From the NCBI RefSeq assembly GCF_030332225.1, contig NZ_JAOWIF010000033.1, positions 434,001-498,000 on the forward strand: a stretch of DNA of 64,000 nt, in the 5' to 3' direction. Below are positions 12,728 through 52,025 of this stretch, one piece after another. The translations under genes and the position numbers were made by a program. The notes below the pieces were generated by a model. The model was not told where the DNA came from, ran no database searches, and saw nothing but the letters and a program-made list of their open reading frames with translations. The stretch's first letter is position 1. Every line of letters starts with the position of its first letter. The stretch comes from Citrobacter sp. Cu233 (GTDB taxonomy: Bacteria; Pseudomonadota; Gammaproteobacteria; Enterobacterales; Enterobacteriaceae).

Positions 12728-12754
12728 GCCTGATAAGCGTGGCGCCATCAGGCA
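12725..12754. repeat. REP element at the end of ptsP
   Basis: A single REP unit (TAGGCCTGATAAGCGTGGCG, then CCATCAGGCA) whose first three bases are the ptsP stop codon. Confidence 0.7.
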
Positions 12755-12843
12755 ATACGGAGGGTAAAGATTACCTATACAGATCTTTTACATCTTCCCG
12801 GCATCCGCTGCGATCCCCTTGTGCTATCATTCGCACCTTTGGA

Positions 12844-12864
12844 GCGCCTGCATTATGCAGGCGC
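12844..12864. other. perfect hairpin between ptsP and lgt
   Basis: GCGCCTGCA, loop TTA, TGCAGGCGC: nine perfect pairs without a following T run. It sits 54 bp before lgt, so it is probably in the lgt leader rather than a classical terminator. Confidence 0.5.
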
Positions 12865-12917
12865 GCTTATCAATTGCTGTCTGACTTCAGCGAAATAACA
12901 AGAACTTGTGGTGACAG

Positions 12918-13793
12918 ATGACCAGTAGCTATCTGCATTTTCCGGATTTCGATCCGGTCATTTTCTCAATTGGACCCGTCGCGCTTCACTGGTACGGCAT
13001 GATGTACCTGGTGGGGTTTATTTTCGCGATGTGGCTGGCGACGCGCCGGGCTAATCGCCCGGGCAGTGGCTGGACCAAAAACGAAGTAGAAAACTTACTT
13101 TATGCAGGCTTCCTCGGGGTTTTCCTCGGCGGGCGTATTGGCTACGTGCTGTTCTATAACTTCCCGCTGTTCCTTGATAACCCGCTGTATCTGTTCCGCG
13201 TCTGGGACGGGGGCATGTCCTTCCATGGTGGGCTTATCGGGGTGATCCTGGTGATGATTATCTTCGCCAAACGCACCAAGCGTACATTCTTCCAGGTCTC
13301 TGATTTTATTGCTCCACTGATTCCGTTTGGTCTGGGCGCAGGCCGTCTGGGTAACTTTATTAACGGTGAACTGTGGGGGCGCGTTGACCCGAACTTCAAG
13401 TATGCCATGTTGTTCCCTGGCTCCCGCACTGAAGATATTTTATTGCTGCAAACCAACCCGCAGTGGCAGTCTATTTTTGACACATACGGCTCTTTGCCTC
13501 GCCATGCCTCACAGCTTTATGAGATGGCGCTGGAAGGGGTTGTGCTGTTTATCATTCTTAACCTGTTTATTCGCAAACCCCGTCCGATGGGCTCGGTTTC
13601 CGGCCTGTTCCTGATTGGCTATGGCGCATTTCGTATTATCGTCGAATTCTTCCGCCAGCCGGATGCACAGTTTACCGGCACATGGGTCCAGTACATCAGC
13701 ATGGGGCAGATCCTGTCTATCCCGATGATTGTCGCAGGTATTATTATGATGGTCTGGGCGTATCGTCGCAGCCCGCAGCAACACGTTTCCTGA
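12918..13793 (+). CDS. lgt: prolipoprotein diacylglyceryl transferase
   Basis: A 291-residue inner-membrane enzyme with about seven transmembrane segments that moves diacylglycerol from phosphatidylglycerol to the lipobox cysteine, the first step of lipoprotein maturation. Key residues H103 (MSFHGG) and R143 in the Lgt signature [12 protein letters not shown] are present. thyA follows after 6 bp, the conserved lgt-thyA pair. Several predicted lipoproteins in this window (YgdR, YgdI, MltA) would be its substrates. Confidence 0.96.
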
Positions 13794-13799
13794 GGAACC

Positions 13800-14594
13800 A
13801 TGAAACAGTATTTAGAACTGATGCAAAAAGTGCTGGATGAAGGCACACAGAAAAACGACCGCACCGGAACCGGAACGCTTTCCATTTTTGGTCATCAGAT
13901 GCGTTTTAATCTGCAGGAAGGGTTTCCGCTGGTTACGACTAAACGCTGCCATTTACGCTCGATCATCCATGAGCTGTTGTGGTTTTTGCAGGGCGACACC
14001 AACGTTGCCTACCTGCATGAAAACAACGTCTCAATCTGGGATGAATGGGCTGATGAGAACGGTAATTTAGGTCCGGTGTACGGCAAACAGTGGCGTGCAT
14101 GGCCAACACCGGATGGCCGTCATATTGACCAGATCACGACAGTGTTGAACCAGTTGAAAAACGACCCGGATTCCCGTCGTATTATCGTTTCCGCGTGGAA
14201 CGTAGGCGAACTGGATAAGATGGCGTTGGCGCCGTGTCATGCGTTTTTCCAGTTCTACGTGGCGGATGGCAAACTCTCTTGCCAACTGTATCAGCGTTCA
14301 TGCGATGTCTTCCTCGGTCTGCCGTTCAACATCGCCAGCTACGCCTTACTGGTTCACATGATGGCGCAGCAGTGCGATCTTGAAGTCGGTGATTTTGTCT
14401 GGACAGGCGGCGACACGCACCTGTACAGCAACCATATGGATCAAACACATCTGCAGCTTAGCCGTGAGCCACGCGCGCTGCCTAAGCTGGTTATCAAACG
14501 TAAGCCAGATTCAATTTTCGACTATCGTTTCGACGACTTCGAAATTGAGGGTTACGATCCGCACCCAGGCATTAAAGCACCGGTCGCTATCTGA
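13800..14594 (+). CDS. thyA: thymidylate synthase
   Basis: A 264-residue enzyme that methylates dUMP to dTMP using 5,10-methylene-tetrahydrofolate. The nucleophile is C146 in [10 protein letters not shown], and the phosphate-binding [13 protein letters not shown] motif is intact. The C-terminus PVAI is that of the E. coli enzyme. It is translationally close to lgt, and a terminator follows 19 bp after the stop. Confidence 0.97.
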
Positions 14595-14613
14595 TCGGGG
14601 CTAATTCTGTCAC

Positions 14614-14643
14614 AACCGGCGCCTTACGCGTCGGTTTTTTTTT
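14614..14643 (+). terminator. intrinsic terminator after thyA
   Basis: ACCGGCG, loop CCTTACG, then CGTCGGT (one G-U pair), followed by a run of nine T. Confidence 0.75.
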
Positions 14644-14778
14644 GCCTTACATTCCATTCTGCGGCGCTGATTCCTGAAATTTTGCAACGTGATGCAATGC
14701 GATAAATATTCTCCGTAGCTTGCCGAAGAAGCTGAATTTCTCCCTCGTTATTAATTTCTCTCACGCCATACTGGCGAC

Positions 14779-15249
14779 ATGAAAAAACAACAAGGCTACA
14801 CGCTTCTCGAAACTCTGATTGCGATGCTGATTGTCGCAGTGCTTGGCGCATCGGGGTTGTACGGTTGGCAGCGCTGGCAACAACAGCAACGGTTATGGCA
14901 AACAGCCAGTCAGGTGCGGGATTACCTGCTGCAATTGCGTGAAGATGCTAACTGGCGCAATCGCGATCACGTCATCAACGTGCTCCGTGAAGGGGGGTCA
15001 TGGTGCCTGGCAAGCTCAGCGACGTCACAAACTTCGTGTCAGCCTGATTCACCATTGATATTTACGCCACTCTGGGTTGATGTCGAGATGGCAGAGATAA
15101 CACCGTCACTGGCTTTTTTTGGCCTACGTAATACAGCGTGGGCCGGGCATATCTACCTGAAGAATGCTGCAGGTGAATGGCGTGTGGTGGTGTCTGGTTG
15201 GGGACGAATCAGACTTTGCGAACGCGGTGAGGCAGATCAATGTCGGTAA
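14779..15249 (+). CDS. ppdA: prepilin-type minor pseudopilin PpdA (GspH-like)
   Basis: A 156-residue type IV pilin-like protein. The leader MKKQQG ends at a prepilin peptidase site followed by [11 protein letters not shown] with the Glu at position +5 and a hydrophobic helix. The C-terminal part contains several Cys. It is the first of four overlapping minor pseudopilin genes before recC. In E. coli these genes are usually silent or weakly expressed and contribute to initiating pilus or pseudopilus assembly. Confidence 0.9.
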
Positions 15250-38839: not shown

Positions 38840-38875
38840 TTGCCGGATGGCGCTGTGAACGCCTCATCCGGCCTG
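38840..38875. repeat. REP element overlapping the end of fucR
   Basis: TTGCCGGATGGCGCTGTGAA, then CGCCTCATCCGGCC. The right arm contains the fucR stop codon and the two codons before it. Confidence 0.7.
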
Positions 38876-39592
38876 GATTGTTTCAATCATTTCTGTATCT
38901 GAAATAATATGCGTCACATTTTCCAGATGCCCAATCTGCGTCTCACCCGAGCGATTAAATTTACTCTTATCAATCAATAATAATGACTGCGCCGCACGCT
39001 TAAGCAGGATGGATTTAAAATCGGCGTTGGTAGCATTTGAATCCCAGAGTGTACCGTCGCGGTCGATCCCCTCGCAGGAAAAGATAAACAGGTCGATATC
39101 AAGTGACTTTAGCTGTGAGATGAGCGATGGATTAACGTAGCAACCGTATTTACGCTCAAGTCGACCACCAGAACTGATCAGCTGAATATTTTCACGTTTT
39201 CCCAATTCGAGGCAAATCGGTTGGCTATTCGTAAATACGTGAATGTTAATGTCTGGCAACAGGCGAGCCAGGTACCAGCAAGTAGAACTGGCATCCAGAG
39301 CGATCACCATGCCCTCCTCTATCCACGTTAACGCGTCTCTGGCGATATCGGCTTTGTGGGAATAATGGCTTTTCAGTCTGATATGAAACGGCTCGCCGCA
39401 GTCCTGGTTTACCCGATGTATCACTTTGGCTCGCCCGTGATTACGCAGTACCTTACCCTGCGCCTGCAGTTGCGTAAGATCGCGACGGATAGTTTCTTTA
39501 CTGACATTGAGCTGTGAGGATAAGGTTTCAGTCGTCAGACTTTTATGGTTGCTCAACAGATCCAGGATCGCTTGCAGGCGTGCTGCTTTCAT
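38864..39592 (-). CDS. fucR: L-fucose operon activator FucR (DeoR family)
   Basis: A 242-residue DeoR-family regulator with HTH LTTETLSSQLNVSKETIRRDL and a sugar-phosphate-sensing domain. In E. coli it activates the fuc promoters in response to L-fuculose-1-phosphate. Identity to E. coli FucR is high except at the C-terminus, which here ends ETIQAG within a REP element. It is the last gene of the fucIKUR unit. Confidence 0.93.
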   Translation of the reverse strand: MKAARLQAILDLLSNHKSLTTETLSSQLNVSKETIRRDLTQLQAQGKVLRNHGRAKVIHRVNQDCGEPFHIRLKSHYSHKADIARDALTWIEEGMVIALDASSTCWYLARLLPDINIHVFTNSQPICLELGKRENIQLISSGGRLERKYGCYVNPSLISQLKSLDIDLFIFSCEGIDRDGTLWDSNATNADFKSILLKRAAQSLLLIDKSKFNRSGETQIGHLENVTHIISDTEMIETIQAG

Positions 39593-39615
39593 GTTTTCTC
39601 ACCCCATCATGCGGT

Positions 39616-39640
39616 GAATGCCCGTACCTGCCGGGCATTC
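39616..39640. other. intercistronic hairpin between fucU and fucR
   Basis: GAATGCCCG, seven-base loop, CGGGCATTC: a perfect 9-bp stem with no T run, within the 58-bp gap. Likely an mRNA-processing or stability element setting fucR levels. Confidence 0.5.
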
Positions 39641-39650
39641 AGGTAAGAGA

Positions 39651-40073
39651 TTATGGCGTTACCCCTTTTTTTAACAGGATATTTCCGTACTTTGCCCGCT
39701 CCCCTGTAATAACGATTGCGAATACTTTTTGTGCTCGTTCATAAAATGCATAACGGTCAATGCGAGTGATGTCCGGGCAAGGTGTTTGTAATGACAGGGC
39801 CTGCCGATATCGCGCTTCTACGTCGGGGTCGAGCGAGTCTCCTTCGACGGCGGCCATCATCACCAGTGGTGGGGCGTAACAGTCCAGTTCAAACAGCGGA
39901 ATAATCGCCCGCAACAGGTCGCCGACCTGCAGACCATCGGCCCGGATAACCTGCGGGCCCATACTGTGGGCCGGAAAGTGGGCGTCGGAAAAGATAATCT
40001 CATCACCGTGACCCATTTCAGCCAGCACCTTTAACAGATCAGGGGAAATTAAGGGGGAAATCGTTTTGAGCAT
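39651..40073 (-). CDS. fucU: L-fucose mutarotase FucU
   Basis: A 140-residue RbsD/FucU-family protein that interconverts the anomers of L-fucose (and accepts some other sugars), supplying the form used by FucI. The start [14 protein letters not shown] is the family N-terminus; an open frame of 51 further codons upstream lies inside fucK and is rejected. The start is one base after the fucK stop codon. Confidence 0.94.
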
Positions 40074-40074
40074 G

Positions 40075-41493
40075 TCACTCGACTCCTGTGAATACGGGTT
40101 CTGTTTGTGGATAGAAGTAACGATATTGATAGTCCACCTGCGCACGAGCCAGCTCCGGAGAGGCAAATTCGCCGATACCGGACCAGGCAAACATTGCAGC
40201 ACCGGCAACCGTCGTTTCGGCGTCATCCAGCACTTTGATGGGAATACCCAGAACGTTTGCTTTTATTTGATTCCATAGTGCATTACGACTTCCTCCACCA
40301 ACCAGAAGTAGCTCTGTCGCTTTGAAATGACCGATGGTTTCTAGTGTGTGTAGATTGTGCTGCAGCTGGGCCGTCAATCCTTCCAGCGCAGCGCGGTAGA
40401 AGTGTCCGCGGGTACTGTTGAGTGTGACTCCCTGCCAGCCTGCACGTGGACTGGCAAGCAGATCGCAGTGCATGGTTATCCCTTCAGCGCCCGCCGGGAC
40501 GGCCTGCGCTTCATCAATGAGCGTTTGCCAGGGGGTGTCGGGTGTCCACAGCAACTTACGTATCCACTCAAGCACGCCGGATGCCAGCCACTGCATACCG
40601 GGGTTATAGAGTCCCGGCCGGCTGTCCAGTTCACAGGTAGAACCCACATAGTCGCTGAGTAAGGTAGTATTCACCTGTGCGCTGCGTACCATCAGTATTT
40701 CCCATGTACCGGAAGAGAGCACGGGTTCATCTGGCTGCGCGCCTGCGCCAAAGAGCGCAAACTGCGTGTCGTGGCCGGCAGAAATAACCGGAATGCCCGC
40801 TGTGAGCCCAAGTTGCTTTGCCGCGTCATTTTTCAACGTTCCGATCTGCTCTCCCGCTTCAACTAAACGTGGAAACAGTCGGCGTGCTATCCCGGTAGCC
40901 TGCAAAATATCAACACTGAAATCTCGCTGATGAATATCCAGCATCTGACTGGTACCGGCCATGGTGATATCTGTGGTGAACTCACCGGTGAGGCGATGGT
41001 TGAGCAGTGATGAAATAAATAGCCAGGCGTGTGCCTGTTCCAGCAATTGCGGGTGATTCTCTTTAAGCCATACCAGCTTGTACAGCGTGTTGAAGCTGAA
41101 CGCGCCGACGCCGGATATATCCTGTAATTTCTGAGGTGATATCCGTTGGCGGATAGAGGCCATGATGGCGGCAGTACGTGGACATTTCCAACTGATAACC
41201 GGATAAAGCAGTTTGCCATACACATCAACCAGCGCGCCATCAACGCCAAATGTGGTGACCGTTATCCCTCGAATATTACAGGCGGTCAGTTCCGTTGTGA
41301 GTTGTTGGCAGCAATCGGCAAAGCGCTGCACAATGGCGTCGAGGGACCACTGATGCCAGCCAGCGTTCTCTATGGCGGTATCACTGGCGTTCGGGGTTGA
41401 GGCGCGGGCGATAATTTTTCCCTGGCGGTCAACAGCAATGGCTCGCACGTTCGTCGCACCACAGTCGAGGACCAAAATAACGTCATTATTCAT
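40075..41493 (-). CDS. fucK: L-fuculokinase
   Basis: A 472-residue FGGY-family kinase. The phosphate-binding motif [13 protein letters not shown] is at the N-terminus, and the catalytic Asp lies in [12 protein letters not shown]. It phosphorylates L-fuculose to L-fuculose-1-phosphate and also acts on D-ribulose at C1. It is distinct from the second FGGY kinase in this locus. A BIME lies between it and fucI. Confidence 0.95.
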
Positions 41494-41508
41494 AATCTCC
41501 CCCGAGAT

Positions 41509-41600
41509 GTTGCCGGATGGCGGCGTAAACGCCTTATCCGGCCGATAGGCTACTCACCCGTAGGCCTGATAAGACGCGTTAGCGTCGCCATCCGGCAATC
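41509..41600. repeat. BIME between fucI and fucK
   Basis: Paired REP units (TTGCCGGATGGCGGCGTAAA with CTTATCCGGCC; TAGGCCTGATAAGACGCG with GCCATCCGGCA) inside the operon, where they may lower expression of fucK relative to fucI. Confidence 0.75.
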
Positions 41601-41608
41601 GCAGATGC

Positions 41609-43384
41609 TTAACGCTTATACAGCGGGCCGTAGTTTTGGCAGGCGCGATAGTCCTGGCCTTCGCTATCCATACCGTGGGCAGCCCATGCGGAAGGGCGAT
41701 AGATCTTCTCTTCTTCCACGTTGTGCATACACACTGGGATACGCAGCATGGCGGCGAGCGTAATAAAGTCCGCACCAACGTGGCCAATCGTCAGCACACC
41801 GTGGTTGGCACCCCAGTTAGCCATGACGGAATAGACATCGTTGAACGGACCTTTGCCGGTTAAGCGCGGTGCAAACCAGGTTGTTGGCCAGGTAGAGTTG
41901 GTGCGAGCATCAAGCTGAGCATGCACCTCCTTCGGTAATTCCACACTCCAGCCTTCCGCAATTTGTAGCACTGGGCCCAGGCCTTTGATGATATTGATGC
42001 GGGTCATGGTGAACGGTACGCCACCTTCGGTAAGAAAACGGGAAGAGTAGCCGCCGCCCCGGAAATATTCGTGGATCGCCGGACACCATTCGGTCGCCGC
42101 CAGGCAATCATCGGCTTCCTGCTGTGAGATCTCCCAATGTGGTTTCATGGTTGGCTGGCCTTCGCTGTCACGCTGTTTGCAGGAACCATCCAGTGCCGCA
42201 GAGCCGGAGTTAATCAGGTGAATAATGCCGTGCTCAGCAAGACCGGTTAGCGGTTTACCTGTGACGCGTTCTACTGCTTCCGGTGACCAGTAGGTCCGTA
42301 CATCAGCAAAGACCTGCGCCGTGCCCGTGAGTTGGTGGCCAAACAACATTGCGACACCGTTCAGGCTGTCGTTCTCGGTGGCAACGACATACGGTTCGCG
42401 CACGCCATTCCAGTCAAATGAGCTATTCAGCAACGCTTCGGCGGTGTCGCCGTTTGGATATTGATCCGTCCAGTGGCGCTGGCCCTGGAAACCGGCGGCA
42501 ATCGCGTTGTACCCCATAGACTCTTCAACCCGGCCTTTCTCTGCCAGTTTCTGGTTACCCTGCATCATGTCGCGGATGCACATTGCCATCAGCAGGCTCT
42601 CTTTCAGCACTGCACGGCTCTGTTCTTCATTTCGCTTATACTGTTGTGCGTTCTGATCCTCACCATAACGGAAATGTTTATCCGCCCACGCCAGGGCAAT
42701 TTCCAGCTCCGCTTCGTCATAGATTTTCTGGTCGATGCGACGACGCAATTCTGTCATATCAACAGGTTGAACCTTCATTCCCAGCCAGGATTCAAAGAAG
42801 TTATGGTCGACAATAGAGCCTGCAATTCCCATTGAAACGCCGCCGACGGACAGATAGCTTTTGCCTTTCATGCTGGCAACGGCTAAACCTGCCCGAGTGA
42901 AACGCAGCAGTTTTTCTTCAACATCGGCAGGGATAGTGGTATCACCTGCATCCTGCACGTCATGACCGTAAATAGAGAAGGCGGGAAGCCCTTTTTGATT
43001 ATGTGCAGCCAGCGCTGCAGCCAGATACACGGCACCTGGACGTTCCGTCCCGTTGAAACCCCAGATGGCCTTCGGGCGCATGGGGTCCATATCGATAGTT
43101 TCGCTGCCGTAGCACCAACACGGCGTGACGGTAATTGTCACGCCGACGTTCAGGCGACTGAATTTTTCTTCACAGGCGGCAGATTCAGCTAATCCGGCAA
43201 TACAGGTGTCTGCGATAACGCACTCGATCTGTGCCCCGCAGGCATGACGAAGTTTCTCGGAAATCAGTGCTGCAGTGGCTTTTGCCATGTTCATGGTTTG
43301 TTCTTCGAGCGACTCGCGTACACCCATACGACGCCCATCAATCACCGGACGGATACCGATTTTCGGTAAACTATTTTTTTTCAT
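41609..43384 (-). CDS. fucI: L-fucose isomerase (also D-arabinose isomerase)
   Basis: A 591-residue manganese-dependent ketol isomerase converting L-fucose to L-fuculose and D-arabinose to D-ribulose. Length and sequence agree with E. coli FucI (for example [19 protein letters not shown] at the N-terminus). In E. coli fucP precedes fucI in the same operon; here fucI is the first gene, directly facing the ABC-importer module. A perfect 16-bp palindrome lies 86 bp upstream of its start. Confidence 0.96.
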
Positions 43385-43469
43385 TCGAGGTTCCTCATCT
43401 CACTTTATGCCGTGCTGCAAAAGCGGATGTCGGACACCACTGTCGCAGTTGGCTGAATTACCCATTTTT

Positions 43470-43485
43470 GCTAACTCGAGTTAGC
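43470..43485. promoter_or_regulatory. operator O1, perfect 16-bp palindrome
   Basis: GCTAACTCGAGTTAGC. Central CG and outer GCT/AGC match the FruR (Cra)/ScrR operator pattern GCTnAnnCGnnTnAGC. It is on the fucI side of the control region. Confidence 0.8.
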
Positions 43486-43526
43486 TTAGGTATCAGAGAG
43501 TTTTTTGCACAACTTTTTTGTTATGG

Positions 43527-43548
43527 AACTGTGAGAAACCTCACGAGA
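43527..43548. promoter_or_regulatory. CRP-binding site
   Basis: The core TGTGAGAAACCTCACG matches TGTGA-N6-TCACA at nine of ten positions. Centred about 153 bp from the fucI start, between O1 and O2, it fits catabolite control of the locus. Confidence 0.75.
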
Positions 43549-43708
43549 AGTGGTTAAAATTCGATCTGCGTCAAATAAACAAATAAAGACTTTCTTATTA
43601 AATTCTTTTTAAATTAATAAGATAAAATAAATTGTCTGTTCAGTGTCACAGTTTTAAACCAAATGATTTGGCTATTTTTGGCAGCTAAAATAGCTTTAAA
43701 AGGCAATC

Positions 43709-43724
43709 GCTAACTCGAGTTAGC
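43709..43724. promoter_or_regulatory. operator O2, identical copy of the palindrome
   Basis: The same GCTAACTCGAGTTAGC, 239 bp from O1. It overlaps the -35 box of the predicted importer-operon promoter, so binding would block RNA polymerase. Confidence 0.8.
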
Positions 43725-43747
43725 ATCGTTGATAAAACGCATATGAT
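43720..43747 (+). promoter_or_regulatory. predicted promoter of the ABC importer operon
   Basis: TTAGCA and TATGAT with 16-bp spacing, about 100 bp before the ATPase gene. The -35 box falls within O2. Confidence 0.5.
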
Positions 43748-43848
43748 CTTGTAGGCACATTCGCATTAACGGTGACGATGGCTTCCCGGCAACGCTGTTT
43801 TTCGCCTGATTCACTGATTACAGTTTCTGTATATTGAGGAAAGCAGCA

Positions 43849-45348
43849 ATGTCTGAAACATTTTTACAGATGAGTCATATTACGAAACGCTTTCCCGGCG
43901 TATTAGCGTTGAGTAATGTGGATTTTACTTTACGCAAAGGTGAGGTTCATGCGCTGTTGGGGGAGAATGGCGCGGGAAAGTCTACCCTGATGAAAATTTT
44001 ATCCGGTGTATATCAACCTGATGAAGGGGATATTATTTTTGAGGACCAACCCGTTTCGTTTGCAAACCCATTGAGCGCACAAAGCCTGGGTATCACCATT
44101 ATTCATCAGGAGTTTAACCTTTTTCCTGAGCTGACGGTCGAAGACAATATATTTATTGGCAGGGAGTTTTGCAAAAATAATCGCTGGCGTCTTGATGAGA
44201 AACAACAGCGACAGGCTGCTATCGATATTTTGCAAAAATTAAACCTGAATATCTCCCCAGACACGCTGGTTGCCGATCTTACTGTTGCTCAGCAACAAAT
44301 GGTTGAGATTGCGAAAGCGATATCGGTGAATGCCAAGATTCTTATTATGGATGAACCAACGGCGGCGTTGACGGAAACTGAAATTGACAGTTTATTCCGG
44401 GTTACACGTTTACTTAAAGAACAGGGAACGGGCATCGTTTATATCTCGCACCGACTGGAGGAGTTGGCGCTGATCGCCGATCGCGCTACCGTCATGCGGG
44501 ATGGACAGTTTATTGCCACAGTGGATTATGACTCGGTCAAAATCAGCGACCTGATTGCCATGATGGTTGGGCGTGACCTTGGCAATATCTATCCCCGCCG
44601 GGAGCCTCAACCCCAGCGTAAACCTGTGCTGGAAGTCAGTGGCCTGACGCGCAAAGGCGTACTGAACAATATCGATTTTACCTTGCATCAGGGGGAAATC
44701 TTAGGTTTTGCCGGACTGATGGGGGCCGGGCGTACAGAGCTGGCACGGGCGATCTTTGGTGCCGATCCCATCGACAGCGGAACCATCAAGCTGAACGGTA
44801 AAGAGACGGTAATCAAGGATATTCCTGATGCCATCCAGCAGGGTATTAGCTACTTAACCGAGGACAGAAAAAAAGAGGGCCTGGCATTAGGATTGTCTGT
44901 TGAACGCAATATTATGCTAGGAAATTACCCCGAGTATTCCAACCGATATGGCAACGTGGATAGCAAACGCTGTCAGCAAACCAGCGAAGAGCAGGTGAAA
45001 GCACTGCGTATTAAGACGCCACATCTTGAACAGGCTGCGTTGAATTTAAGTGGCGGTAATCAGCAAAAAATTATTATTGCCAGATGGGTATGCAAGGACA
45101 CCGACATTCTCATCTTTGATGAACCCACGCGCGGTATTGATGTGGGAGCCAAACTTGAAATTTATGAATTAATGAATCGACTGGTGGCAAAAGGGAAATC
45201 AATTATCATGATTTCCTCTGAATTACCGGAAGTGCTGGGTATGTGCGATCGCATTTTAGTTATGCGTAATGGGCGTATTACCGGAGAGTTAGCTTCTGAT
45301 GACGCCACACAAGAAAAAATCATGCAATATGCGACGTTAGAGGACTAA
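43849..45348 (+). CDS. sugar ABC transporter ATP-binding protein (RbsA-like, two NBDs)
   Basis: A 499-residue double ATPase of the ribose/galactose importer class. NBD1 has Walker A GENGAGKST (38-46) and Walker B ILIMDEPTAAL. NBD2 has the degenerate GLMGAGRTEL loop, signature LSGGNQQ (about 400) and ILIFDEPTRGIDVG. The ATG at 43849 has a GAGGA site 8 bp upstream; an in-frame TTG 15 bp earlier is unlikely. First gene of the importer-kinase-regulator-fucAO arm. The sugar is not shown by sequence; context suggests D-arabinose, L-fucose or D-ribulose. Confidence 0.9.
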   Translation: MSETFLQMSHITKRFPGVLALSNVDFTLRKGEVHALLGENGAGKSTLMKILSGVYQPDEGDIIFEDQPVSFANPLSAQSLGITIIHQEFNLFPELTVEDNIFIGREFCKNNRWRLDEKQQRQAAIDILQKLNLNISPDTLVADLTVAQQQMVEIAKAISVNAKILIMDEPTAALTETEIDSLFRVTRLLKEQGTGIVYISHRLEELALIADRATVMRDGQFIATVDYDSVKISDLIAMMVGRDLGNIYPRREPQPQRKPVLEVSGLTRKGVLNNIDFTLHQGEILGFAGLMGAGRTELARAIFGADPIDSGTIKLNGKETVIKDIPDAIQQGISYLTEDRKKEGLALGLSVERNIMLGNYPEYSNRYGNVDSKRCQQTSEEQVKALRIKTPHLEQAALNLSGGNQQKIIIARWVCKDTDILIFDEPTRGIDVGAKLEIYELMNRLVAKGKSIIMISSELPEVLGMCDRILVMRNGRITGELASDDATQEKIMQYATLED

Positions 45349-45351
45349 TTT

Positions 45352-46335
45352 ATGACTATCTCTGTAACCTCTTCAGACAGCAATAATAAGAAAATAAAAA
45401 TTAACAAAGAGCTTTTAATGCGCCTGGCGCCGCTTTTGAGTCTGATTATTCTGGTGATATTTTTTAGTTTTGGATCACCTTTCTTCTTTAACACTGAAAA
45501 CATTATGACCATTGCCCTGCAAACCTCGGTGATTGGCATCATGGCGATTGGTGTGACTTTCGTCATTATCACCTCAGGAATTGACCTCTCTCTCGGTTCG
45601 GTAGTGGCCTTTTCTGGCGTAGCGGTAGGCATTTGCGCCACCCTGGGTTTGCCTTTGCCGGTATGCATTCTGGCCGGCGTACTCGCTGGTGGATTATGCG
45701 GCTATATCAATGGGTTGCTGGTCACTAAAATGACTATTCCGCCCTTTATTGCCACCCTGGGTCTGATGATGTCCGTCCGGGGGATCAATATGGTGATGAC
45801 TGATGGCCGGGCGATTTACTTTGCTGATTATCCCACCTTCAAGATGCTGGCGCAGGGACGCTTGTTCGATGTGCTGCCTTATCCCGTTTTTTACCTCGTG
45901 GTCGTCGCACTGATCGCCGCATATATTCTCAAGAAAACGGTGATTGGCCGTTATGTTTATGCCGTGGGGAGTAATGAGGTTGCTGCGCATCTTTCCGGGA
46001 TTAAAGTCCAGCGCGTGAAAATTTTCGTCTACGCATTTTGTGGTCTGCTGACCGGGATTGCTGGGGTCATTCTGGCTTCTCGTCTTAACTCGGGCCAGCC
46101 GACCGTTGGTGTGGGCTATGAACTGGAAGCCATTGCTGCGGTGGTCATTGGCGGCACGAGCCTGATGGGGGGGATTGGTACTATTGGCGGCACCATTATC
46201 GGCGCATTCATTATGAGCGTGTTGAAAAATGGTCTGAACCTGATGGGCGTCTCGCAGTTCTGGCAAATGGTGGCTATGGGCGTCGTCGTTATCGCCGCGG
46301 TTTATCTCGACACTTTACGCAAAAAAATTCGTTGA
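45352..46335 (+). CDS. sugar ABC transporter permease (RbsC-like)
   Basis: A 327-residue membrane protein with about eight to ten hydrophobic segments, of the BPD_transp_2 family. The family motif near the middle (SGIDLSLGSVVAFSG) and the coupling stretch YAVGSNEVAAHLSGI are present, as is GGTSLMGGIGTIGG near the end. It begins 3 bp after the ATPase stop, with GAGGA upstream. It would homodimerise as the channel for the adjacent ATPase and periplasmic protein. Confidence 0.92.
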   Translation: MTISVTSSDSNNKKIKINKELLMRLAPLLSLIILVIFFSFGSPFFFNTENIMTIALQTSVIGIMAIGVTFVIITSGIDLSLGSVVAFSGVAVGICATLGLPLPVCILAGVLAGGLCGYINGLLVTKMTIPPFIATLGLMMSVRGINMVMTDGRAIYFADYPTFKMLAQGRLFDVLPYPVFYLVVVALIAAYILKKTVIGRYVYAVGSNEVAAHLSGIKVQRVKIFVYAFCGLLTGIAGVILASRLNSGQPTVGVGYELEAIAAVVIGGTSLMGGIGTIGGTIIGAFIMSVLKNGLNLMGVSQFWQMVAMGVVVIAAVYLDTLRKKIR

Positions 46336-46408
46336 TTTACGCACCCGGAAGTCACGGGACAACATAACCCTGACGTTTAGGGTGACTCACTCAGAACGGA
46401 GTAAAACA

Positions 46409-47359
46409 ATGAGAACCAGGAATTTTGTCTATGCGTTATCCCTGCTGGCCTGCATGACATCCAGCGCACTGGCTAAAGATATGAACCTTCCTGTGGTCAG
46501 TAAAGGTTTCCAGCATGAATTCTGGCAGACCGTAAAAATGGGTACCGAAGCGGCAGCGAAAGAGTTGGGCGATAAGACCAGCTATGTTGGGCCTGCCGAT
46601 GAAACTCAGATTGCTGAGCAGATTCAGTTGGTTGAAAACGCAATGGCGCAAAAACCTAATGGGTTGCTGCTGGCGGCATTAGACGCCAATGCGCTTGCAC
46701 CACTAGTGGAAACAGCGAATTCGCGCGGCATAAAGGTTGTGACGTTTGACTCAGGCGTAAATTCTGACATTCCTGTCAGCTTTGTGGCAACGAATAACCG
46801 TAAAGCAGGGGCTGAAGCGGCAGATGCTCTCGCTGCACAAGTGGGTAGCAAAGGGAAAGTAGGCATTATTGCGCACGTGGCCGGAACCTCTTCCGCAATT
46901 GAACGTTCGGAAGGTTTTGTGGCCAGAATGAAGGAAAAATATCCGGATATCAAAGTACTGCCGGTTCAGTACAGCGATGGCGATCCGCAAAAAGCGATGG
47001 ATAAAACCATCGATATGATCCAGGCAAACCCCGATATTGCCGGGATCTACGGCACCAATGAAGGCTCAACGCTGGGCGTGGCGAATGCCATTGATAGCCA
47101 AAACCTGAAAGGTAAAGTGAAGGTGATTGGTTTTGATAGCACCGAAGCAATCATTGCCTTCCTGAAATCAGGCGTGATCCAGGGCTTTGTTGTACAGGAC
47201 GCGTACCAGATTGGCTATCAGGGTATTAAGACGCTGAATGCGGCCGTGTCAGGTCAGTCAGTACCGAAAGAAATTGATATTCCGGTGAAATTTGTTAATG
47301 CGCAGAATATTGATACGCCGGAAATCGACAAGTTATTACATCCATTCGGTAAAAAATAA
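46409..47359 (+). CDS. periplasmic sugar-binding protein (RbsB-like)
   Basis: A 316-residue substrate-binding protein (Peripla_BP_4). A signal peptide (MRTRNFVYALSLLACMTSSALA, cleavage about residue 22) directs it to the periplasm. Two-lobe pentose/hexose-binder motifs are visible, such as PNGLLLAALDANALAP and IAGIYGTNEGSTLGVANAI. An upstream in-frame GTG would add nine residues before the signal peptide and is rejected. Ligand unknown; family members bind ribose, allose, xylose and similar sugars. Confidence 0.92.
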   Translation: MRTRNFVYALSLLACMTSSALAKDMNLPVVSKGFQHEFWQTVKMGTEAAAKELGDKTSYVGPADETQIAEQIQLVENAMAQKPNGLLLAALDANALAPLVETANSRGIKVVTFDSGVNSDIPVSFVATNNRKAGAEAADALAAQVGSKGKVGIIAHVAGTSSAIERSEGFVARMKEKYPDIKVLPVQYSDGDPQKAMDKTIDMIQANPDIAGIYGTNEGSTLGVANAIDSQNLKGKVKVIGFDSTEAIIAFLKSGVIQGFVVQDAYQIGYQGIKTLNAAVSGQSVPKEIDIPVKFVNAQNIDTPEIDKLLHPFGKK

Positions 47360-47413
47360 GACCGTGGGGGCGACATCGCTCGCCCCATTATTAGCCAGCA
47401 TCAGGGAGCTACT

Positions 47414-48994
47414 ATGAGCAGTGGATATTTCCTCGGAGTGGATGTCGGTTCTGCCAGTGTCAGGGCTGGTGTTTTTGATGCCAGTGGCAAACGGCTGGCT
47501 TTTGCGACATTCCCTATCTCGCAGTTTCGACCTGGTCCTGAGCGGGTAGAGCAGTCATCTGCCGAAATCTGGCAGCAGGTTTGCCATGCCGTGAAAGAGG
47601 CTGTGTCGTCAGCCGGGGTTTGTGTTGAGGAGATCCGCTCGTTGGGGTTTGATGCCACCTGTTCGTTAGTGGCTCTGGATGAACAGGGGCAGGGTCTGGC
47701 GGTTTCACCTGGTGAACCGTCAGACCACAACATCATCATGTGGATGGATCATCGTGCTGTGCAGGAGACACAGCGTATCAACGCTACACAGGACCCAGCG
47801 TTGTGCTATGTCGGTGGTGAAGTCAGTGTCGAAATGGAACTACCCAAAGTGTTGTGGCTAAAAAACCATTTCCCTGCGACCTGGCAGAGTGCACACCGCT
47901 TCTACGATCTGGCGGATTTTTTGGTCTGGAAAGCCACCGCTTGTGATGTTGCAGGTCTGTGTACTTTAACCTGTAAATGGAACTATCTGGCACATGAACA
48001 ACGCTTTAGCCACTCCCTGCTGGATGCGGTTGAATTAACGGATTTACTGAACAAAATTCCGTCGCGGATCCTGCCCCCTGGCGCGGCGGTTGGGACGCTC
48101 AGCCCCGATGCGGCACAGGCGCTGGGACTGACGACAGCGGTGTTAGTCGCCAGTGGTATGATTGATGCGCATGCGGGTGGTGTGGCGCTTGCCGGTGTTG
48201 AGCCTGCGGGAACATTGGCGTTGATCTGCGGAACATCAAACTGCCATATGTTGTGCAGCGAGCAGGAAATTCATACACCGGGTGTATGGGGGCCGTACTG
48301 GTCCGCCATGCTGCCTGGTTACTGGCTGACGGAAGGGGGACAAAGCGCTGCTGGGGCGCTGGTTGACTGGACGCTTCAGGAGTCAGGTGCCAGCGCTGAG
48401 TTGTATCACAAGGCTGAGGCACGGGGTTGTCATCCGATAGTGTTAGTTAATGAATGGGTGGCTGCACTGGAAGAGCAGGAGCCAGAGCCTGGTCGTTATC
48501 TGCATGTACTGGCCGATCATCATGGTAACCGTTCCCCGCGTGCGCGACCCGATGCCCGGGGCAGCGTGTGCGGTTTGACTCTTGAACGAGGTGAGATGCA
48601 GGTTGCTCGTCTGTATCTGGCGACATTACAGGCGATTGCCTGCGGCACCCGACACATTATGGAAGTGATGCGCGAAAACGGTCATACCATTTCTCGACTG
48701 ACACTGTGTGGCGGCGCAACACATAATCCACTGTGGTTGCGAGAGTATGCAGACGCCACCGGATGCGATATCCATCTTTTGCAGGAAGAAGATGCTGTGA
48801 CGTTAGGTGCGGCTATCACTGGTGCGGTAGCCTGCGGGGTGTGGGCAAATGTTCCCTCCGCCTGCCGGGCGATGGTTCGCCCAGGCGGGGTGATTAAAGC
48901 TAATCCGGCACGACAGGACTTCTATGACCGTAAATACCAGGCATATCTGATGATGTGGGATCAACAGCAGGCGCTTAACCAGGTTATGCAGTAA
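47414..48994 (+). CDS. FGGY-family pentulose kinase, predicted D-ribulokinase
   Basis: A 526-residue sugar kinase. The phosphate motif FLGVDVGSASVRAG is at the N-terminus, TCSLV is at 82-86, and the catalytic Asp is about D251 in MIDAHAGG. The segment from GFDATCSLVALD through IMWMDHRAV and YVGGEVSVEM closely resembles human FGGY and yeast Ydr109c, which phosphorylate D-ribulose at C5; TCSLV is the signature of that group. It is unlike FucK of this locus. I infer conversion of D-ribulose to D-ribulose-5-phosphate. An L-ribulose or ribitol-linked role cannot be excluded. Confidence 0.85.
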   Translation: MSSGYFLGVDVGSASVRAGVFDASGKRLAFATFPISQFRPGPERVEQSSAEIWQQVCHAVKEAVSSAGVCVEEIRSLGFDATCSLVALDEQGQGLAVSPGEPSDHNIIMWMDHRAVQETQRINATQDPALCYVGGEVSVEMELPKVLWLKNHFPATWQSAHRFYDLADFLVWKATACDVAGLCTLTCKWNYLAHEQRFSHSLLDAVELTDLLNKIPSRILPPGAAVGTLSPDAAQALGLTTAVLVASGMIDAHAGGVALAGVEPAGTLALICGTSNCHMLCSEQEIHTPGVWGPYWSAMLPGYWLTEGGQSAAGALVDWTLQESGASAELYHKAEARGCHPIVLVNEWVAALEEQEPEPGRYLHVLADHHGNRSPRARPDARGSVCGLTLERGEMQVARLYLATLQAIACGTRHIMEVMRENGHTISRLTLCGGATHNPLWLREYADATGCDIHLLQEEDAVTLGAAITGAVACGVWANVPSACRAMVRPGGVIKANPARQDFYDRKYQAYLMMWDQQQALNQVMQ

Positions 48995-49060
48995 GACAAA
49001 AGTTTAAAATACTTTTATGATTGTGAATTGACGTTTTTGGATGTGAACTGGGACATATAA

Positions 49061-50059
49061 ATGGCTAAAACAGTAGAACAGATAGCCAGCGATCTGAATT
49101 TATCGGTAACGACCGTGCGACTGGTGCTGAACGGGAAGGCTGAGCAATATCGTATCAGTGTCAAAACCCAAACGCGTATTAATGAATACGTTGAACGGTA
49201 TGGTTATGTCATAAACCATTCAGCCCGCAGCCTGAAACTGAATAAAACAGATACGTTGGGGCTGATTGTGCCCAATATATCTAACGTCTTTTTTGCCACA
49301 CTTGCCGAGAAACTTGAACAACGTTGCCGTCGCTCTGGATACCAATTAACGATTAGTTGTACCTACGATGATGTTGATTATGAAAACAAATTAACTAAAG
49401 CGCTAATAGCTCGTAATGTTGATGGTCTTTTTATTGTTCCCTCAACATTAGAGAATCAGCAACACCATTTGCGTCAGGTCAGAAAACCGATGGTGCTACT
49501 CGACAGGGATTTTAAGTATACCGATAACGCGCTGGTTGAAAGTCATAACATTTTAGGTGGTGAAAAGCTGACGCAAAGTTTGTTTGATGCAGGAAAATCT
49601 CCGATCTGGTTTTTAGTCGGGGATACCGGATTGCCCAGTATTGGTGATCGTTTGAAAGGTTATCTTAACGCATTGAACAGTAATGGCATTACTCATCGTG
49701 ACTGGGTGCGTGAAGGTCCGGATAATACGCCGGATGGTGGCTACCGGTTGATGGAGAAATTGATCAATGAACAGGGCTGTCCGCAGGCATTTATTGCCTC
49801 ATCATTACCTGTGCTGGAAGGTGCCGTCATTGCTATTCGCAATCGTTTTGGTGTGATTCCACCGGATATTAATATCGGAACATTTGATGAACATCCGATG
49901 CTGGGATTCCTCGCTAATAATGTCTGGTCAATGCAGCAGGATGAAAATGTCTGGGCGGAAAAAGCCTTCGCTATGATGATGAGTGCTATTGATGACCAGC
50001 CAATTAAAGAAACTGTAAAAGTTGAGATGAAGCTAATTAAGCGTGTAAGACAACAATAA
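49061..50059 (+). CDS. LacI-family regulator of the FruR/ScrR subgroup, probable local regulator
   Basis: A 332-residue repressor. The HTH with VRLVLNGKAEQYRISVKT shares the extended NGKA-QYR(V/I)S-KT element of FruR (Cra) and ScrR rather than the GalR form, and the effector domain is ScrR-like (TLGLIVPNISNVFFA). The operators upstream of the importer operon and fucI match the DNA pattern of this subgroup, so I infer this protein binds them. The inducer is probably a sugar or sugar phosphate of the pathway. Begins 66 bp after the kinase gene. Confidence 0.85.
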   Translation: MAKTVEQIASDLNLSVTTVRLVLNGKAEQYRISVKTQTRINEYVERYGYVINHSARSLKLNKTDTLGLIVPNISNVFFATLAEKLEQRCRRSGYQLTISCTYDDVDYENKLTKALIARNVDGLFIVPSTLENQQHHLRQVRKPMVLLDRDFKYTDNALVESHNILGGEKLTQSLFDAGKSPIWFLVGDTGLPSIGDRLKGYLNALNSNGITHRDWVREGPDNTPDGGYRLMEKLINEQGCPQAFIASSLPVLEGAVIAIRNRFGVIPPDINIGTFDEHPMLGFLANNVWSMQQDENVWAEKAFAMMMSAIDDQPIKETVKVEMKLIKRVRQQ

Positions 50060-50201
50060 TTCGTCGCACTAACTAAATCGGCCAACTGAATCTGAATAAA
50101 TATGTTCAGTGGCTGCTCATACCTGAAACCTGACCCGTCTTACTCTGCGGCAGCATTTTTTCGCAATAAAGACGAGGGGCAACTGTACCCGGAGAATCAT
50201 T

Positions 50202-50849
50202 ATGGAAAGAATGCGTTTATCACGTGAAATCATCGAAACCTGCCTGGAAATGACCCGTCTTGGGTTGAATCAGGGAACCGCCGGAAATGTGAGTGCACGA
50301 TATGAAAATGGAATGCTGATCACACCCAGCGGTATTCCTTACGAAAGACTCACTGAAAACATGATCGTGTTCGTAGATAACGATGGCAAATATGATAAAG
50401 GACAATTACCTTCCAGTGAATGGCGTTTTCACCTGGCGGCTTATCAGACGCGCCCGGATGCCAATGCGGTCGTTCATAACCATGCGATTCATTGCACCGC
50501 CGTGTCGATTCTGAACCGTCCTATTCCGGCAATCCATTACATGATTGCCGCGGCTGGGGGGAACTCTATCCCGTGTGCGCCGTATGCGACGTTTGGTACA
50601 CGAGAGCTGTCAGAGCATGTGAGCGTCGCTTTGAAAAGCCGTAAGGCAACGTTGTTGCAGCACCATGGGTTGATTGCCTGTGAAGCGAATCTGGAAAAAG
50701 CACTATGGCTGGCGCATGAAGTGGAAGTCCTGGCCCGCCTTTATCTGAGCACTCTGGCGATTGTCGACCCGGTGCCGGTGCTGGATGACGAAGAGATCGC
50801 CATTGTGCTGGAGAAATTCAAATCTTACGGATTACGAATTGAAGAGTAA
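50202..50849 (+). CDS. fucA: L-fuculose-phosphate aldolase
   Basis: A 215-residue class II aldolase splitting L-fuculose-1-phosphate (or D-ribulose-1-phosphate) into dihydroxyacetone phosphate and L-lactaldehyde (or glycolaldehyde). Zinc ligands are visible in VVHNHAIHC and QHHGLIAC, with the catalytic Glu in SSEWRFH. It is followed by fucO. The upstream 142-bp gap should contain a fucAO promoter, but I see no clear boxes or operator there, so it may also be read from the importer promoter. Confidence 0.96.
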   Translation: MERMRLSREIIETCLEMTRLGLNQGTAGNVSARYENGMLITPSGIPYERLTENMIVFVDNDGKYDKGQLPSSEWRFHLAAYQTRPDANAVVHNHAIHCTAVSILNRPIPAIHYMIAAAGGNSIPCAPYATFGTRELSEHVSVALKSRKATLLQHHGLIACEANLEKALWLAHEVEVLARLYLSTLAIVDPVPVLDDEEIAIVLEKFKSYGLRIEE

Positions 50850-50876
50850 TTTCGCATAGCGAAAAGGAGAAATACG

Positions 50877-52025
50877 ATGGCGAACAGAATGATTCTGAAT
50901 GAAACGGCATGGTTTGGCCGGGGGGCTGTTGGGGCATTAACGGACGAGGTCATCCGCCGGGGTTATCGCAAGGCTTTGATTGTCACCGATGCAAACCTGG
51001 TACAGTGCGGTGTTGTCGATAAGGTGACATCCCGTATGGATGCGGCTGGTTTACCGTGGGAAATCTATTCCGGCGTGATCCCGAATCCTACCATTGCAGT
51101 GGTGAAGGAGGGATTGGGCGTCTTTCAGCAAAGTGGTGCTGATTATCTGATAGCGATAGGCGGCGGCTCCCCGCAGGATACCTGCAAAGCGATTGGCATT
51201 ATCCACAATAACCCTGAGTTTGCCGATGTACGCAGTCTTGAAGGGTTATCGCCAACACGTGCTGCGAGCGTACCGGTGATGGCAATCCCTACGACGGCAG
51301 GGACGGCAGCGGAAGTGACCATTAACTATGTGATCACGGATGAAGAAAATCGGCGTAAATTTGTCTGTGTCGATCCGCATGACATCCCGCAGGTGGCGTT
51401 TATTGATGCCGATATGATGGACGGTATGCCTGCCGCGTTAAAAGCGGCGACTGGGGTCGATGCGTTGACCCATGCTATTGAAGGTTATATTACGCGGGCG
51501 GCGTGGGCACTCACTGACGCGTTGCACATCAAAGCCATTGAGATCATTGCCGGGGCGTTGCGCGGCTCTGTTAATGGTGACAGCCAGTCCGGTGAGGCAA
51601 TGGCGCTTGGTCAGTACGTTGCCGGGATGGGATTTTCAAACGTCGGTCTGGGACTCGTGCATGGGATGGCGCATCCGCTAGGGGCGTTTTATAACACACC
51701 ACACGGCGTCGCCAATGCCATTTTGTTACCGCACGTGATGCACTACAACGCCGACTATACCGGGGATAAATTCCGCGATATTGCTCGCGCAATGGGCGTG
51801 AAGGTGGAAGCGTTGACGCTGGATGAGGCGCGTAAAGCTGCTGTAGATGCTGTGTTTGCGCTTAACCGTGATGTGGGGATCCCGCTGCATTTACGTGATG
51901 TTGGCGTGCGTAAAGAGGATATCCCGGCGCTGGCGCAGGCGGCATTCGACGACGTGTGCACTGGTGGTAATCCGCGTGAAGCAAGCATTGCCGATATTGT
52001 CGAGCTTTACCATACCGCCTGGTAA
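50877..52025 (+). CDS. fucO: lactaldehyde reductase / L-1,2-propanediol oxidoreductase
   Basis: A 382-residue iron-dependent group III alcohol dehydrogenase that reduces L-lactaldehyde to 1,2-propanediol anaerobically (and glycolaldehyde from D-arabinose to ethylene glycol). The nucleotide motif GGGSPQDTCKAIG and iron-ligand segments DALTHAIEG and GLVHGMAHPLGAFYNTPHG are present. Strong ribosome site AGGAG upstream. REP elements follow the stop codon. Confidence 0.96.
   Translation: MANRMILNETAWFGRGAVGALTDEVIRRGYRKALIVTDANLVQCGVVDKVTSRMDAAGLPWEIYSGVIPNPTIAVVKEGLGVFQQSGADYLIAIGGGSPQDTCKAIGIIHNNPEFADVRSLEGLSPTRAASVPVMAIPTTAGTAAEVTINYVITDEENRRKFVCVDPHDIPQVAFIDADMMDGMPAALKAATGVDALTHAIEGYITRAAWALTDALHIKAIEIIAGALRGSVNGDSQSGEAMALGQYVAGMGFSNVGLGLVHGMAHPLGAFYNTPHGVANAILLPHVMHYNADYTGDKFRDIARAMGVKVEALTLDEARKAAVDAVFALNRDVGIPLHLRDVGVRKEDIPALAQAAFDDVCTGGNPREASIADIVELYHTAW

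Follow-up and report, generated by a model that had tools for sequence, protein, structure and literature searches.

An ABC importer, a predicted D-ribulokinase and a LacI-family regulator in the place of fucP in a Citrobacter fuc locus

Analysis of a 64,000-nucleotide stretch of the Citrobacter sp. Cu233 genome (the window) identified an L-fucose (fuc) locus in which an ATP-binding cassette (ABC) importer, a kinase and a regulator are located where the symporter gene fucP would be expected. Between rlmM and xni-sdaB-sdaC, the genes fucR, fucU, fucK and fucI lie on the minus strand and are followed, after an intergenic region of 464 bp, by a plus-strand series of genes coding for an ABC ATPase, a permease, a binding protein, an FGGY kinase and a LacI-family regulator, and by fucA and fucO. 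In E. coli K-12, fucO-fucA is divergent from fucP-fucI-fucK-fucU-fucR, as an earlier reading of the stretch from its letters alone (the sequence-only reading) had correctly stated, and the fucP operon is activated by FucR. In the window the divergent region has moved: it now separates fucI from the ATPase gene, and the importer, kinase and regulator genes share one strand with fucA and fucO.

The six fuc genes were found to be intact, as the sequence-only reading had described them, and all passed the cut-offs of their NCBIfam equivalog models. Those on the minus strand are fucR (38864..39592), the DeoR-family L-fucose operon activator (NF007720, 455.8 bits; cut-off 259); fucU (39651..40073), the L-fucose mutarotase of 140 aa (NF011949, 292 bits; cut-off 141); fucK (40075..41493), the L-fuculokinase (TIGR02628, 750 bits; cut-off 471); and fucI (41609..43384), the L-fucose isomerase (TIGR01089, 1206 bits; cut-off 850), which is also a D-arabinose isomerase. 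A longer fucU open reading frame reaching 40226 reflects an upstream in-frame start, and the NF011949 match covers residues 52-191 of this long frame. On the plus strand are fucA (50202..50849), the L-fuculose-1-phosphate aldolase (TIGR01086, 409 bits; cut-off 400), and fucO (50877..52025), the lactaldehyde reductase (NF007911, 728 bits; cut-off 537).

The inserted genes are all on the plus strand, and open reading frames and profile matches agree with the earlier description of a ribose-type ABC importer, a second FGGY kinase and a LacI-family regulator in the fucP slot. The RbsA-like ATPase (43849..45348) contains PF00005 twice, the RbsC-like permease (45352..46335) matched PF02653 with 162 bits and the periplasmic sugar-binding protein (46409..47359) matched PF13407 with 231 bits; a tandem-domain ATPase, a BPD_transp_2 permease and a Peripla_BP_4 binding protein together place the importer in the CUT2 family. 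It did not qualify as the D-ribose importer RbsABC, with scores of 596 bits for RbsA (cut-off 745), 306 for the permease (398) and 123 for RbsB (337). The binding protein is 100% identical to proteins of Citrobacter sp. wls619 and C. youngae CCUG 30791. The kinase gene (47414..48994) codes for an FGGY pentulose kinase, predicted to be the D-ribulokinase DarK, which scored above the curated cut-off of TIGR01315 (520.3 against 408.7 bits). For the regulator (49061..50059), a predicted repressor of both transcription units, the best model was TIGR02417, with 228 bits, below its cut-off of 390.

The region between fucI and the ATPase gene (43385..43848) could be aligned across 29 loci, and blastn matched none of it to the K-12 locus. 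Two perfect copies of the palindrome GCTAACTCGAGTTAGC (0 mismatches) are present, O1 on the fucI side (43470..43485) and O2 on the importer side (43709..43724), 239 bp apart, and both are predicted sites of the LacI-family regulator. In the alignment the two GCTAACTCGAGTTAGC blocks flank a predicted CRP-like site, TGTGAGAAACCTCACG (43530..43545), of the form TGTGA-N6-TCACG, both halves of which are conserved. Shuffled windows contained 0.17 matches to the palindrome at up to three mismatches, and two matches were reached in 1 of 100 shuffles. A sigma-70 promoter scan of the region gave two sites against 1.2 in shuffled sequences, no better than chance.

The palindrome pair was found, with up to four mismatches per site, in 30 of 32 examined loci with the importer module (29 of them with up to two), and its spacing is held at 238-240 bp though the length of the region varies from 380 to 503 bp. 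The exceptions are locus L007, whose contig starts too late to include the region, and L045, which has no second site. None of eight fucP-type loci contained the palindrome at up to two mismatches. In the genome of the window exact copies occur only at O1 and O2, one more is found at two mismatches, and a reversed control pattern gave eight.

The whole-genome search for fucP, which the sequence-only reading had proposed as a check, recovered no fucP: in this genome (4.79 Mb, 100% complete, 0.17% contamination) nothing scored above the TIGR00885 cut-off. The sole match was a partial one of 26 bits, and an E. coli control was positive in the same search. With no fucP beside fucI, the locus is not of the K-12 type. 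Among 17 genomes of the genus, 14 encode the binding protein and the other three a true FucP (656-658 bits), with no genome carrying both; in the fucP-type loci of the genus (L083-L085) fucP adjoins fucI and fucA. The probability of this exclusion arising by chance is 0.0015 assuming independent genomes, which they are not. Importer and true fucP are thus alternatives in the genus of the window, and gene content, the absence of fucP and the genus pattern uphold the proposal that the FucP symporter was exchanged for an ABC importer with an added kinase and regulator.

Several observations weigh against too simple a view of this exchange. In a sample of 246 genomes of the family, scored for no more than the few best candidates in each, the importer was found in 15, a fucP above 450 bits in 21 (one with an internal stop) and both in none; this is no test of exclusion, because only 1.3 co-occurrences were expected by chance (0 of 15, p=0.62). 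The exclusion is significant in the genus pattern only, and there without correction for kinship. Moreover, a weaker FucP-like protein (326-329 bits), which is still above the TIGR00885 cut-off, accompanies the importer in four of the 14 genus genomes, three genomes of the family sample (G076, G099, G102) have the importer and a FucP-like protein of 325-360 bits, and a Vibrio locus (L031) carries a 40% FucP homologue next to the importer locus.

Six of the 17 genus genomes (G002, G006, G007, G008, G014, G015) encode this second FucP-like protein (326-329 bits); in four loci that were compared, its identity to K-12 FucP is 35%. The genome of the window has none.

The extent of the exchange was delimited in E. 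coli. A module-type E. coli locus (L002) is 99% identical to K-12 until approximately 13 bp before the fucI start and has no match through the module; in fucA 58 mismatches fall in the first 240 nt, followed by at most three per 60-nt block through the end of fucO. Because similarity stops before fucI and resumes inside fucA, the exchanged block in E. coli takes in, by this alignment, the entire control region and roughly a third of fucA at its 5' end (approximately 240 nt) in addition to fucP or the module. The earlier proposal of an exchange in the fucP slot is therefore kept as regards the module and widened to the old control region and 5' fucA. In Citrobacter, too, FucA follows the allele: the proteins of the fucP-type loci L083-L085 are 85% identical to that of the window and those of module loci (L004-L012, L014, L016, L034) 90-100%, with L045 (83%) left out. 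The importer locus of L045, a contig labelled Citrobacter freundii M-21, is close to those of Atlantibacter (L025, L026, L028) and not to those of Citrobacter, and the label may be wrong.

The module genes of the window and L002 show nucleotide identities of 78% (ABC ATPase), 82% (permease), 82% (binding protein) and 79% (LacI gene), and the flanking core genes 82% (rlmM), 80% (fucI) and 80% (xni). As the module genes, with the exception of the kinase gene, have diverged to a similar degree as their core neighbours, an old pair of alternative alleles swapped by recombination appears to fit better than recent import. A foreign island recently acquired by Citrobacter through horizontal transfer would agree with the patchy occurrence of the importer, which was found in 15 of the 246 family genomes sampled and in 378 of 5426 from E. 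coli, and with a kinase gene more diverged than the rest of the module (72% nucleotide identity), but the similar divergence of the other module genes and the core genes makes this explanation improbable.

Those 378 of 5426 complete E. coli genomes carry the gene for the binding protein at 80-90% nucleotide identity, always on the chromosome, and a 10.4-kb query from fucI to fucO of a module-type strain was matched over at least 80% of its length in 377. The fucP gene is present in 4993 of the same genomes (at least 80% of the gene covered in 4962); the importer and fucP figures are separate tallies and give no joint count. Identical gene order was seen in the four E. coli loci opened, those of PapRG-06-3, 2012C-4431, REL606 and BL21(DE3). 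With importer, kinase and LacI genes between fucI and fucA and no fucP, the window shares the arrangement of the fuc/dar locus of E. coli B, and it also shares the pair of palindromes between fucI and the importer genes, a feature defined in the present work. The sequence-only reading was aware of no description of the arrangement, but the gene arrangement itself is not new and is already in print for E. coli B/BL21 (PMC10221146, PMC12307932).

Of 1058 E. coli genomes in PMC10221146, 50 are reported to have an ABC system in place of fucP, BL21 being the representative, and 60% of 15 Citrobacter genomes to have neither permease nor ABC genes. The latter figure is at odds with the 14 of 17 genus genomes found here; genomes and criteria may differ. 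The same paper reports that fucose was fermented by all clinical isolates, including 3 of 40 with the ABC permease and no fucP. The slow growth of BL21 on fucose is there put down mainly to the missing FucP, and the discussion mentions the absent aldolase activity of E. coli B. We found IS1 within fucA in REL606 (L106, 5971-7395) and BL21(DE3) (L151, 30632-32056); in E. coli L002 and L003 fucA is unsplit. It follows that the slow growth of BL21 on fucose cannot be attributed to the absence of FucP alone, and that the strain printed as the fucP-less example for fucose growth is confounded by its split fucA. According to PMC6150544, D-arabinose supports growth of BL21(DE3) and not of K-12, and a table there lists BL21(DE3) as L-fucose positive, which argues against a simple picture.

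The distribution of the operator was then compared with that of the regulator. A degenerate form of the site, GCTAANWCGARTTAGC, was found in 31 of the 246 family genomes; these include every one of the 15 with the importer, plus 16 without it. A LacI homologue (E up to 1e-60) is encoded in 38 genomes, 30 of the 31 operator genomes against 8 of the 215 site-less ones (Fisher p about 5e-30, not corrected for kinship). In two Vibrio loci with the kinase and a 42-44% LacI homologue (L030, L038) a one-mismatch site lies between the LacI and kinase genes. The regulator thus appears to pair well with the site, and we predict that the palindromes are its operators. Exceptions to this pairing are eight genomes that encode a LacI homologue of 53-56% identity but lack an exact site, one genome with the site and no homologue (G251), and two loci (L032, L035) with a perfect site before the importer and no LacI match in the fetched stretch. 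No description of this operator was found in the part of the literature covered, none of the terms looked for occurs in the main text of the LacI-regulon survey PMC4052901, and a search combining LacI family, fucI, D-arabinose, operator and fucose utilization returned no paper.

Other genes lie behind the site in relatives of the window. Of the 16 operator genomes that lack the importer, 15 gave loci, which were compared over 3-kb stretches, with 12 places viewed in wider ones. A DarK-like kinase follows the site in 11 of the 16: in ten (60-70% identity) it lies within about 200 bp, and in G182 about 79 bp after the site. Within the 3-kb stretch G197 has a GH172-like gene and G111 has fucI; no query matched in G250, G251 and G158. 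The wider layouts were fucI / site / kinase / LacI and GPH / GH172-like / site in G118; site / GH172-like / GPH, then LacI / site / fucI in G197; and, in G111 (L146), a fucA-LacI-alpha-L-fucosidase-transporter operon separated from fucI-fucK by two sites 239 bp apart. In seven loci (L139, L140, L142, L147, L148, L149, L150) the site and a DarK-like kinase are followed by an open reading frame of about 550-580 aa, for which no Pfam match was obtained in the three scanned (L139, L140, L142); the kinase-led operons of L139 and L140 continue with DHDPS-like and BNR_2 proteins.

Huaxiibacter (L020) and Lelliottia (L021) have a third copy of the palindrome, upstream of a GH172-like gene beside the importer locus, and in all the site precedes such genes in L020, L021, L141 and L144. 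These loci, of which L020 is an example (12338-15183), hold the GH172-like (DUF2961) gene together with a GPH-type transporter gene behind the predicted operator. The L020 protein, the only member run against Pfam, matched DUF2961 with 273 bits, and those of the other loci are 73-98% identical to it. According to PMC10115798, GH172 (DUF2961) includes exo-D-arabinofuranosidases acting on mycobacterial arabinan as well as a difructose dianhydride enzyme. These neighbours suggest use of D-arabinofuranosides in Enterobacteriaceae, and the link to D-arabinan is suggestive only, because the family also holds the difructose dianhydride enzyme. A PF11175 (GH172) search was silent in the genome of the window and in the control genomes as well, so that it does not establish absence.

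From these layouts we tentatively propose, at somewhat less than even chance for the proposal as a whole, a plug-in regulon for sugars that are FucI substrates, not described before and built on the LacI-family regulator with its GCTAACTCGAGTTAGC operator. The swap would have taken the old fucA-fucP promoter region off fucIKUR, brought in the new control region and imposed a looping repressor, and interchangeable cassettes would have been recruited behind the operator. One of these would be the ABC importer and another DarK; the others would pair a GPH transporter and a GH172 D-arabinofuranosidase, or an alpha-L-fucosidase and its transporter. If this is true, enterobacteria would use D-arabinan fragments of actinobacterial cell walls, in addition to fucosides.

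The kinase is predicted to be a D-ribulokinase. Besides its TIGR01315 score it matched PDB entry 3gg4 with 474 bits, and the motif TCSLV, which we take to be a D-ribulokinase signature, was present in 60 of 60 kinase stretches examined (stretches not independent). Among the best 80 of 319 relatives, which gave 78 loci, the importer is followed by the LacI gene in 28 enterobacterial loci, with the kinase gene between them in 17 and missing in 11. In C. amalonaticus (L012) the kinase was lost, since a short remnant resembling the end of its gene is still present. As it is missing from 11 of the 28 related loci, the kinase is optional, and the importer and the Fuc enzymes are the core. A second pentulose kinase, 45% identical to that of the window, is encoded elsewhere in the genome (G000:C20:62661-64283).

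The FucI pathway was the constant partner of the importer in the loci compared. Importer genes accompany fucI, fucK and fucU in Vibrio (L029, L031), Sodalis (L032) and Acerihabitans (L035), with no kinase or LacI match within the fetched stretch; more distant relatives of the binding protein (L039-L081) are mostly located elsewhere. Since the importer stays with the fuc genes where the kinase is missing (the 11 of 28 loci and these four), the importer ligand would most simply be a FucI substrate, D-arabinose or L-fucose, two sugars with the same configuration at carbons 2-4.

Further evidence weighs against assigning the ligand more closely. The ATPase, permease and binding protein all scored below every substrate-specific NCBIfam cut-off, and no ligand, kinase or regulator assay for this protein set was found in the literature covered. 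The fucosidase neighbour, seen in one genome, suggests L-fucose and the GH172 neighbours D-arabinose, so that genomic context does not choose. The predicted model of the binding protein (predicted local distance difference test score 91.8) gave almost equal Z scores with many sugar-binding proteins, and for this reason the modelled structure does not decide the ligand. Its closest PDB sequence relatives are 4rxt and 4wut, whose ligands are presumably D-arabinose and D-fucose, respectively. A literature search on the matched PDB entries and the TCSLV motif returned only papers on other matters, judged by title. In addition, the ABC gene of PMC10221146 is named yjfF there and may be another gene than that of the permease of the window.

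The locus could be mainly an L-fucose system, the importer replacing FucP and the kinase serving as an accessory for spill-over D-ribulose. This would account for the kinase-less importer-fuc loci, for the alpha-L-fucosidase operon adjoining the same site pair in L146 and for the fucose fermentation reported in PMC10221146 for clinical isolates of E. coli without fucP. We consider it unlikely, though a serious competitor, given the growth of BL21(DE3) but not K-12 on D-arabinose (PMC6150544) and the DarK-like kinases and GH172-like genes that follow the site in importer-less genomes. Alternatively, the importer could take up D-ribulose, as Aau and Rbl do, the kinase making this a D-ribulose pathway with FucI as a bystander; the Rbl system of Citrobacter rodentium indeed pairs a ribose-type importer with a D-ribulokinase (PMC12307932). 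To this we give little credence: the kinase gene of the window has the binding protein and LacI genes as neighbours and, unlike that of Rbl, no KpsF-like isomerase gene, and importer genes accompany fucI and fucK where no adjacent kinase is encoded. The combined L-fucose and D-arabinose role put forward by the sequence-only reading fits the printed record on the E. coli B/BL21 locus and is retained; D-ribulose and ribitol, which it had also entertained, are less likely as imported sugars because the importer genes accompany fucI even without a kinase gene.

In our view the locus is very likely the Citrobacter version of the fuc/dar locus known from E. coli B, with importer, DarK and LacI-family regulator in exchange for fucP and a likely function in the combined utilization of L-fucose and D-arabinose. 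In the scheme that we infer, the binding protein and importer would take up D-arabinose and probably L-fucose, which FucI would convert to D-ribulose and L-fuculose, respectively. DarK would phosphorylate D-ribulose to D-ribulose-5-phosphate, which would enter the pentose phosphate pathway, and L-fuculose would be handled by FucK, FucA and FucO. The LacI-family protein, bound to the two palindromes 239 bp apart, would repress both fucIKUR and the importer-kinase-regulator-fucAO unit, probably with DNA looping, until released by a sugar of the pathway, and CRP would probably activate from the site between the palindromes. The predicted operator makes this regulation directly testable, in a natural system of two alleles, symporter or ABC importer with kinase, at one locus of both Escherichia and Citrobacter.

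Of the known systems, the fuc/dar cluster of E. coli B (REL606 and BL21(DE3)) agrees with the window in genes, order, orientation and the flanks rlmM and xni-sdaB-sdaC, and in REL606 both palindromes are present at the same distance of 239 bp; the difference is the IS1 element that splits fucA in the two B strains, the fucA of the window being intact. The K-12 fuc locus has fucA, fucO, fucI, fucK, fucU, fucR and the flanks in common with the window, but carries fucP and a different fucA-fucP control region, and lacks the importer, kinase and LacI genes and the palindrome. The DarK kinase, whose name is taken from PMC12307932, is described there as an insertion in the E. coli fucose locus. The Rbl D-ribulose system of C. 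rodentium, compared by its published description only (PMC12307932), resembles the window in combining a ribose-type ABC importer with an FGGY D-ribulokinase and differs in its KpsF-like isomerase and genomic context. The Klebsiella-type ribitol locus, compared only as described in PMC12307932, shares the D-ribulokinase with the window, but combines it with a ribitol dehydrogenase and a polyol permease instead of an ABC importer.

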